From Halobacterium rubrum (GTDB lineage Archaea > Halobacteriota > Halobacteria > Halobacteriales > Halobacteriaceae), in contig NZ_JAJQQZ010000002.1 in NCBI RefSeq assembly GCF_021729015.1, positions 558,001 to 622,000 of the forward strand: DNA of 64,000 bases, written 5' to 3'. Numbering within the stretch: the stretch's first letter is position 1; the number at the start of each line of letters is the position of its first letter. This document shows, piece by piece, positions 21,907 through 23,626 of the stretch. A program made the translations under genes and the position numbers. The notes under the pieces were generated by a model. The model was not told the origin of the DNA, ran no database searches, and saw only the letters and a program-made list of their open reading frames with translations.

Positions 21907-22016
21907 ACCGTTCCCGTCTCCACGGTTCTCTGCGGCGCTCTCCGTTCGCTGCATCGTTTTCGTACTGGCCAGCTACTTGCTCTGTGAACGCCGGCAGGAG
22001 TTGACCCGGCCGAAGG

Positions 22017-22024
22017 CTTATACC
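22017..22024 (+). promoter_or_regulatory. TATA box for the homoserine dehydrogenase operon leader
   Basis: cttatacc is centred about 27 nt before the ATG at 22048, the distance expected for a leaderless transcript starting at that ATG. It is the best TATA box between EF-2 and the ACT-domain gene. Confidence 0.5.
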
Positions 22025-22047
22025 GGACGGCCGCCGGAGAGAGGGGT

Positions 22048-22170
22048 ATGCTCGCAGGCAGGCGCGCCACGAGTCGCGGAGTCGGCACGGAGCGACCGCA
22101 GTCTCGCTCGCGGCCGACAACAATTATTGTCGGAGCGCGCGCGCCCGCCTCGGGGGTGGCGTCGCGGTGA
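22048..22170 (+). CDS. possible leader peptide of the homoserine dehydrogenase operon
   Basis: This is a 40-residue frame that could be translated from a leaderless mRNA. ATG 22048 lies about 27 nt after a TATA box, and its TGA at 22168-22170 overlaps the GTG start of the ACT-domain gene as GTGA. Residues 22-30 read RPTTIIVGA. The Thr-Thr-Ile-Ile codons are ACA ACA ATT ATT, all rare in this GC-rich genome, and lie inside a 20-bp palindrome. Homoserine dehydrogenase feeds threonine and isoleucine synthesis, so a thrL-like stalling peptide is conceivable. The Arg/Ala-rich remainder looks like generic GC-rich translation, so it may instead be chance reading through an operator. Confidence 0.35.
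   Translation: MLAGRRATSRGVGTERPQSRSRPTTIIVGARAPASGVASR
22114..22133. promoter_or_regulatory. palindromic operator or RNA hairpin upstream of the hom operon
   Basis: CCGACAA-CAATTA-TTGTCGG is a perfect 7-bp inverted repeat around an AT-rich core, 34 nt before the ACT-gene GTG at 22167. The core could itself serve as a TATA-like element, so a dimeric repressor bound here could block initiation. In RNA it would form a hairpin that a ribosome on the leader frame would open. Confidence 0.5.
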
Positions 22171-22688
22171 GCGAGCCCGCGAACCGCACGCACACGCTCC
22201 GGCTGGAGCTCGTCGACGAGCCCGGGGAGCTGTTGCGCGCGCTCGCCCCCATCGCCGAGAACGGCGGGAACCTCCTGTCGATATTCCACGAGCGCGGGTC
22301 GCTGACGCCGCGCGGCCGCATCCCCGTGGAGGTCGACCTGGAGTGTCCGCCGAAACAGTTCGAGGACGTGGTCGGGGCGCTCCGGGACGCCGGCGTCACC
22401 GTCATCGCGGCGGACGCCGAACACTACGGGGAGGCGGTGACCGTGTTGCTGGTCGGTGACCTCGTCGCGTCGGACCTCTCCGGCGTGCTGGCGTCCGTCG
22501 AGGAGTGCGGGGCGGCGTCGGTCGTGGACTTCACGCTGACCGACGAGCCCGGCGTGGACGACGAAGCCAGCGCCCGGCTTCGGCTCGCCGTCGAGGCTGG
22601 CGGCGCCGGCGACGCGCTGGCGACCGTCCGCGACGTGGCGGCCGAGAAAGACCTGCACGTGGTCGAGCCGCTCGTGGGGGACGCATGA
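22167..22688 (+). CDS. ACT-domain amino-acid-sensing protein
   Basis: This 173-residue protein has an N-terminal ACT domain (THTLRLELVDEPGELLRALA, then NGGNLLSIFHER) and a second ACT-like half after residue 90 (EAVTVLLVGDLVASDLSGVL). The start is GTG 22167, overlapped by the stop of the short upstream frame. Its own stop overlaps the ATG of homoserine dehydrogenase (ATGA, 22685-22688). Given that coupling, it is probably the detached amino-acid-binding regulatory subunit of the enzyme, which itself lacks an ACT domain. That role is inferred from context and from C-terminal ACT domains in bacterial homoserine dehydrogenases. Confidence 0.8.
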   Translation: MSEPANRTHTLRLELVDEPGELLRALAPIAENGGNLLSIFHERGSLTPRGRIPVEVDLECPPKQFEDVVGALRDAGVTVIAADAEHYGEAVTVLLVGDLVASDLSGVLASVEECGAASVVDFTLTDEPGVDDEASARLRLAVEAGGAGDALATVRDVAAEKDLHVVEPLVGDA

Positions 22689-23626
22689 AGCTCGCAGTGC
22701 TGGGCGCCGGTGCGGTCGGCCGCGCGGTCGTCGACCTCGCCGCCGAGTACGGCCACACCGTGACGGCGGTGGCGGACTCCGGGAGCGCAGTCGTCGATGG
22801 CGACGGCGTCGACTCCGAAGCGGTGCTCGCACGCAAGCGCGACGAGGGCGTGGTCGGGGACGGCGACCCGGCGCACGCGCTGTCGGCCGACTACGACGTG
22901 CTCGTCGAGGCGACACCGACCACGCTCGGGGACGCCGAACCCGGCTTCGGGCACGTCCGTGGCGCACTCGAGACCGACCGACACGTCGTCCTCGCGAACA
23001 AGGGGCCGGTGGCGGAGCGCTACGACGACGTGCGCGCGCTCGCAGACGAGAGCGCGGGCAGCCTGCGGTTCGAGGCGACGGTCGGCGGCGCGATTCCCGT
23101 GCTGGCGACCGTCGAGGGCGTCGGCCCGAGCCGCGTGAACGCCGCCCGCGGCGTCCTGAACGGTACGGCGAACTTCGTGCTCTCGCGGATGGCCGCCGAG
23201 GGCCTCGAGTACGAGCACGTGCTCGCGGAAGCCCAGGACCTCGGGGTGGCGGAGGCCGACCCGACGTTCGACGTCGACGGGACCGACGCCGCACTGAAGT
23301 GTGCGATTCTCGCGAACGTGCTCCACGACGGCGGGTACAGCCTCGCGGACGTCGACGTGGACGGCATCACGTCGATTCCGCCGTCGGCGCTCGACCTCGC
23401 CGCCGAGGAGGGCCGGACAGTCCGGCTGGTCGGCGAAGTCACCGCTGACGGCGTCCGGGTCGGGCCACGGCTCGTCCCCGAACACGGCACGCTGGCGGTG
23501 ACCGGGACGACGAACATCGTCCAGCTGGAGACCGAGCACGCCGGCCGCCTGAACCTCTCCGGGCAGGGCGCCGGCGGTGCAGCGACGGCGTCGGCGGTGC
23601 TGGCCGACGTCGACCGGCTGCCGTGA
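22685..23626 (+). CDS. hom: homoserine dehydrogenase
   Basis: A 313-residue enzyme reducing aspartate semialdehyde to homoserine with NAD(P)H, the branch point to threonine, isoleucine and methionine. It has the Rossmann start MKLAVLGAGAVGRAVVDLAA, the VLANKGPVAERYDDV segment, and the catalytic region FEATVGGAIPVLATVEGV...GVLNGTANFVLSRM. It is the short form without a C-terminal ACT domain; an ACT protein is encoded just upstream with a 4-nt overlap. No homoserine kinase or threonine synthase gene is nearby. Confidence 0.93.
   Translation: MKLAVLGAGAVGRAVVDLAAEYGHTVTAVADSGSAVVDGDGVDSEAVLARKRDEGVVGDGDPAHALSADYDVLVEATPTTLGDAEPGFGHVRGALETDRHVVLANKGPVAERYDDVRALADESAGSLRFEATVGGAIPVLATVEGVGPSRVNAARGVLNGTANFVLSRMAAEGLEYEHVLAEAQDLGVAEADPTFDVDGTDAALKCAILANVLHDGGYSLADVDVDGITSIPPSALDLAAEEGRTVRLVGEVTADGVRVGPRLVPEHGTLAVTGTTNIVQLETEHAGRLNLSGQGAGGAATASAVLADVDRLP

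Follow-up and report, generated by a model that had tools for sequence, protein, structure and literature searches.

The leader frame ahead of the ACT-domain gene and hom

The window, that is, the whole 64,000-nt stretch of Halobacterium rubrum DNA analyzed here, contains the genes for EF-2, an ACT-domain protein, homoserine dehydrogenase (hom), and EF-1alpha in this order, EF-2 and EF-1alpha being named from their translations. The ACT-domain gene (22167-22688; Pfam ACT, E = 1.6e-6), which is present in 112 of 116 genomes of the order, is the first gene of the operon, and its stop codon overlaps the start of hom (22685-23626; identified by Pfam Homoserine_dh, E = 1.4e-50, and by its translation) as ATGA at 22685-22688. 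The ACT gene, hom, and the leader features described below are on the forward strand.

An archaeal promoter core at 22008-22022 comprises a GCCGAAGGCTTATA block and TTATA (22018-22022); it occurs in the same form in 12 of 13 Halobacterium genomes and as a variant in L014. The center of the TATA box is located 28 nt ahead of the ATG at 22048, which opens an upstream open reading frame (uORF) of 40 codons (22048-22170) with the peptide sequence MLAGRRATSRGVGTERPQSRSRPTTIIVGARAPASGVASR. The uORF is probably leaderless and is probably translated. Its TGA stop shares bases with the GTG start of the ACT gene in the sequence GTGA, and a Shine-Dalgarno-like GGGGGTGG of the ACT gene lies within the uORF (22152-22159); such motifs precede nearly all ACT starts examined. 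Two Thr codons, ACA ACA (22117-22122), are the candidate sensor and are followed by two Ile codons, ATT ATT, so that the four codons (22117-22128) lie within the palindrome CCGACAA-CAATTA-TTGTCGG (22114-22133). Both kinds of codon are rare: in five window genes, ACA encodes 5 of 136 Thr residues and ATT 8 of 110 Ile residues. The earlier note, made from this sequence alone, had described a 40-codon frame behind a TATA box, a GTGA overlap with the ACT gene, rare Thr-Thr-Ile-Ile codons inside a perfect 7-bp palindrome, and a downstream homoserine dehydrogenase gene, and all of these descriptions proved accurate.

In Halobacterium, the frame, the start site, the stop/start overlap, and the Thr-Thr pair were all kept in 13 of 13 genomes. 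The uORF ATG is about 27-31 nt past the TATA box in every one of them, the length is 35-40 codons, and the stop and the ACT start share 4 or 8 nt. ACA ACA is found at the same codons in 12 of the 13 genomes and is one codon off in L012. The genus consensus reads MHAGRRATRGIGTERxxSRSQPTT, beyond which the tail varies, and identity is about 0.85 or more, dropping to 0.57 just past the Thr codons. Within the uORF, the third position of codons is no less conserved than the first (0.85, vs 0.67 for the ACT gene). A codon-substitution test for coding within the genus gave a weak signal (p = 0.13), and the GC3 pattern of haloarchaeal genes was not found in the uORFs.

By a rule-based search, a short ORF behind a TATA-like box and ending on the ACT start was detected in 132 of 151 haloarchaeal loci, with overlaps of the form GTGA, ATGA, or ATGAGTGA; in a few rule-negative loci (L016, L061, L106, L109, L141), the uORF was missed by the rule or is ambiguous. 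Openness of the frame is in itself weak evidence, because the loci were chosen for an open uORF and random frames, shuffled at the same composition, reached the ACT start without a stop in about half of the cases. The uORFs fall into a long class, mostly 30-50 codons, in Halobacterium, Haloferax, Halogeometricum, Halegenticoccus, Halarchaeum, Haloquadratum, and others, and a short class of 7 to about 28 codons in Haloarcula, Natrinema, Natronomonas, Halococcus, and others. The long class shares a weak motif, [IV][GD][TA]E, and the Thr pair, and comparison of the peptide profile of Halobacterium with that of other genera gave P = 1.8e-5. In most of the loci without a detected uORF, namely Halorussus-type loci (L017, L019, L025, L029, L044, L054, L091, L135) and L037, L038, and L040, the uORF is absent and the ACT ATG is directly behind the TATA box. 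These loci are a natural contrast for the role of the leader.

Threonine codons and the adjoining hairpin

The residue composition of the uORF peptides was compared with shuffles preserving the base composition of each uORF. Thr ranked at the top of the 20 residues, both in 29 non-redundant long uORFs (147 seen vs 66 expected, z = 10.7) and in all 65 non-redundant uORFs (178 vs 93, z = 9.4), and Ile was modestly enriched (z = 2.7), these z-values being inflated by the shared ancestry of the sequences. The Thr excess was not found in short uORFs of other families (z = 1.2). It is specific to the frame: across all uORFs, Thr made up 11.3% of residues in the uORF frame and 6.6 and 7.5% in the two others. 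A Thr-Thr pair is located within codons 22-28 in 16 of the 29 non-redundant long uORFs, mostly as the rare ACA ACA and otherwise as ACG ACA or ACG ACG. Because ACG ACA and ACG ACG replace ACA ACA, Thr is conserved despite codon differences. ACA accounts for 46 of the 178 Thr codons of the uORFs (26%), vs 5 of 136 in the window genes.

An RNA hairpin at 22081-22118 directly precedes the Thr codons; it was supported by a consensus fold, compensatory pairs, and a covariance model, and it had been missed in the earlier note. In the window, GTCGGC (22081-22086) pairs with GCCGAC (22113-22118), and GAGCGA (22090-22095) pairs with TCGCTC (22104-22109). RNAalifold on the genus sequences predicted TCGGC...GCCGA enclosing GAGCG...CGCTC, with its end at the start of the Thr codons. 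When 19 sequences from several genera were aligned without gaps, the register of the stem was kept with compensatory pairs (UA/CG, GC/AU, GC/CG, CG/UA), and pairing was much worse when the registers were slid. There were 10 double-change cells, a count reached by none of 500 shuffles. Single-segment folds of Haloferax, Halarchaeum, and others had stems in the corresponding position, with quite different sequences. Excess stability, averaged over 30 uORFs, was maximal in segments with their end 3 to 12 nt downstream of where Thr-Thr begins (mean z of -1.2 and -1.6) and was gone 24 nt upstream. A search of 146 genomes with the covariance model yielded strong matches (E < 1e-3) in 22 genomes, one per genome and with the ACT gene next in all; five weaker matches (E = 0.002-0.007), in which the ACT gene was not next, look like chance. 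No match to the ACT-hom leader was found among the Rfam 15 families at E up to 1. The ACT-hom leader is real and conserved, and its Thr codons stand behind a covarying hairpin.

A second leader ahead of ilvB

Another leader ORF was found upstream of ilvB (L199-L242), with the copy of the H. rubrum genome located outside the window (G000:C4, about 220.2-220.5 kb). It is mostly 22-31 codons long, some lengths being overestimated by use of the farthest ATG. The two most enriched residues are Ile (44 vs 15) and Val (84 vs 44), IVGA or IVGV is present near the end of the leader in 22 of 23 non-redundant cases, and the rare codons ATT and GTA are used. A hairpin, GTAGGGG...CCCCTAC, is located at the stop of the leader, which has no match among the Rfam 15 families. 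This ORF looks like an archaeal ilv leader-peptide regulator. The hom and ilvB leaders are unrelated and carry residues that match their respective pathways, and this is the strongest argument for sensing.

In most ilvB loci examined, a second short uORF overlaps the ilvB start. In L199-L211 it is rich in Thr, for example MTHAADTRDTTRTEGYR, and its stop overlaps the ilvB start as ATGA; the AC-rich sequence may explain part of this Thr excess. In many of the same loci, GTGGCTGTCGG in the codons of the ilvB leader is complementary to CCGACAGCCAC shortly ahead of the second uORF.

Possible function of the leaders

Judged from sequence, a threonine-sensing function of the ACT-hom leader is likely, and the best explanation, which we hold to be fairly probable, is that this cis-acting leader gauges the threonine supply via its own translation. 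The 5' end of the transcript would be at the uORF AUG or within a few bases of it, and a ribosome would initiate on this 5'-terminal AUG, melt the hairpin (codons 12-24), and then reach the Thr pair, in most cases the rare ACA ACA. A shortage of charged Thr-tRNA would make the ribosome dwell at these codons and keep the hairpin open; with ample Thr, it would move on, the hairpin would re-form behind it, and termination would take place on the ACT start codon. Dwelling at Thr would be a natural sensor, because the hairpin would be melted during the dwell and would re-form after passage. The dwell time or the state of the hairpin would in turn set the level of translation, or perhaps transcription, of the ACT gene and hom. 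We infer in this scheme the translation of the uORF, Thr as the signal, the sign and route of the output, and with them the regulation of hom by the leader in response to threonine.

Several routes of output were considered. That a stall at Thr-Thr releases a sequestered ACT start was not supported by the folding model, which showed no position-specific effect: a ribosome at Thr-Thr freed the ACT start no more than one elsewhere on the leader (p = 0.93). Accessibility of the ACT start rose slightly with a ribosome anywhere on the leader, as calculated with energy parameters not made for high salt. No terminator-like site or U-tract of an intrinsic terminator was detected at the leader. Coupled termination-reinitiation alone would lead to lower hom under Thr shortage. 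The direction of the response is therefore unpredictable from sequence. Pairing of the uORF segment CTCGCTCGC with the ACT start GTGAGCGAG, present in the local fold of the window, was also set aside, being lost by eye outside the genus.

The palindrome at 22114-22133 suggests another reading, namely that a regulator uses it as a DNA operator, the ORF being open by chance in GC-rich DNA. The inverted repeat is indeed perfect over 7 bp in the window, and the openness of about half of random frames of like composition fits with a chance ORF. However, such a palindrome is nothing unusual, the same form (seven bp with a 6-nt loop) occurring 36 times in the window; it is not conserved within the genus, pairing across the Thr codons of relatives is at chance level, and the frame is conserved everywhere. 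We therefore regard an operator as highly improbable. The earlier note had named the retention of the palindrome without the frame as the sign of a pure DNA operator, and the reverse was found in the genus. It had also proposed a thr-type leader, to be checked by aligning the region upstream of hom in relatives. The frame, the start geometry, the overlap, and the Thr codons withstood this comparison, with Thr the most enriched residue; the Ile codons and the palindrome did not, being lineage-specific features of the window that are partly found in its nearest relatives. Ile sensing as a conserved trait was rejected on account of this limited distribution of the Ile codons. Where the palindrome exists, it could compete with the hairpin for GCCGAC.

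A simpler scheme is plain translational coupling, in which the leaderless uORF loads ribosomes at the end of the transcript and passes them to the ACT start by termination-reinitiation, so that expression is raised without any sensing. The overlap is nearly universal, including families with short uORFs without Thr excess, and termination-reinitiation couples overlapping gene pairs in Haloferax volcanii (PMC6728339); reinitiation at a leader gene has also been proposed to raise expression in bacteria (PMC4833913). Like the H. volcanii pairs, the ACT-hom leader has an NTGA stop/start overlap, which recurs at ACT/hom, and unlike them its upstream partner is a residue-biased leader of 40 codons, not a protein gene. 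Coupling alone leaves unexplained the Thr excess, the fixed place of Thr-Thr, the rare codons, and the covarying hairpin of the long class, as well as the Ile/Val leader of ilvB, and we consider it rather unlikely. More doubtful still is that the hairpin is a receptor, with a protein (e.g., the ACT-domain protein as an autoregulator) or a small ligand binding the hairpin and ACAACA and with the frame incidental or secondary. The constraint at the third codon positions and the compensatory changes in the stem indicate that the RNA is constrained as well. On the other hand, the loop and stem sequences vary widely among genera, unlike those of an aptamer, Thr survives synonymous codon change with an excess specific to the frame, and in no case is the frame closed before the ACT start.

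Amino acid sensing through a ribosome on a leader peptide is a textbook bacterial mechanism, and the thr operon leader (thrL) of Escherichia coli and its relatives is an attenuator with Thr/Ile codons and homoserine dehydrogenase genes downstream. The haloarchaeal leader resembles thrL in having a short ORF with Thr (and Ile) codons before a homoserine dehydrogenase gene and an adjoining RNA structure. It differs in its archaeal host, its apparently leaderless uORF, and the conservation of Thr alone; moreover, its hairpin is upstream of the Thr codons, there is no intrinsic terminator, and the leader stop overlaps the next start. In erm-type translational attenuators, a drug-sensing leader peptide changes access to the downstream start without a terminator. 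The ribosome on the ACT-hom leader could likewise alter start access without a terminator, although codon supply would be sensed rather than a drug and folding gave no support for start release. Features typical of attenuators were found in the conserved same-strand ORF, the enrichment of codons for the product in the long class, and the adjoining RNA structure; mutually exclusive structures including an intrinsic terminator were not found, the competing palindrome being confined to the window and a few relatives.

Babski et al. reported uORFs in the 150-250-nt 5'-UTRs of H. volcanii, including those of pheS and the tryptophan-tRNA ligase gene (PMC4983044, Table 2). These are also short ORFs before larger genes in a haloarchaeon; the analysis was restricted to UTRs of 150-250 nt, Table 2 includes neither hom nor ilvB, and amino acid sensing is not proposed in the passage. 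In agreement with the earlier note, which knew of no comparable archaeal attenuator, no amino acid leader peptide of archaea was found in the literature searched, outside of which most subscription journals lie, or in Rfam. More tentatively, haloarchaea might own a set of leader-peptide regulators on leaderless uORFs, for Thr at ACT-hom, for Ile/Val at ilvB, and perhaps with a mini-leader at lysC, in which rare-codon dwell by a hairpin would be read out at an overlapping start without a terminator of the bacterial type. Two pathway-matched leaders in a genetically tractable group would allow a direct test of whether such control arose outside bacteria and of how it operates without an intrinsic terminator.

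Other pathway genes were also inspected. A conserved mini-uORF of 12-13 codons, for example MNTVRRTGECRCA, overlaps the start of lysC (aspartokinase) behind a TTATC box (L243, L245-L247, L252, L253), and an inverted repeat such as CGGTACG..GTACCGG is present upstream of lysC. No comparable uORF was found at thrB, thrC, or hisG in the same genus. At trpC of the genus there were only short, unconserved uORFs, and recurrent imperfect repeats, TATGTACA / GTGCATCNATGTACAA, surround the start region (L172, L176, L177, L179, L181, L182); these repeats are possibly a DNA operator.
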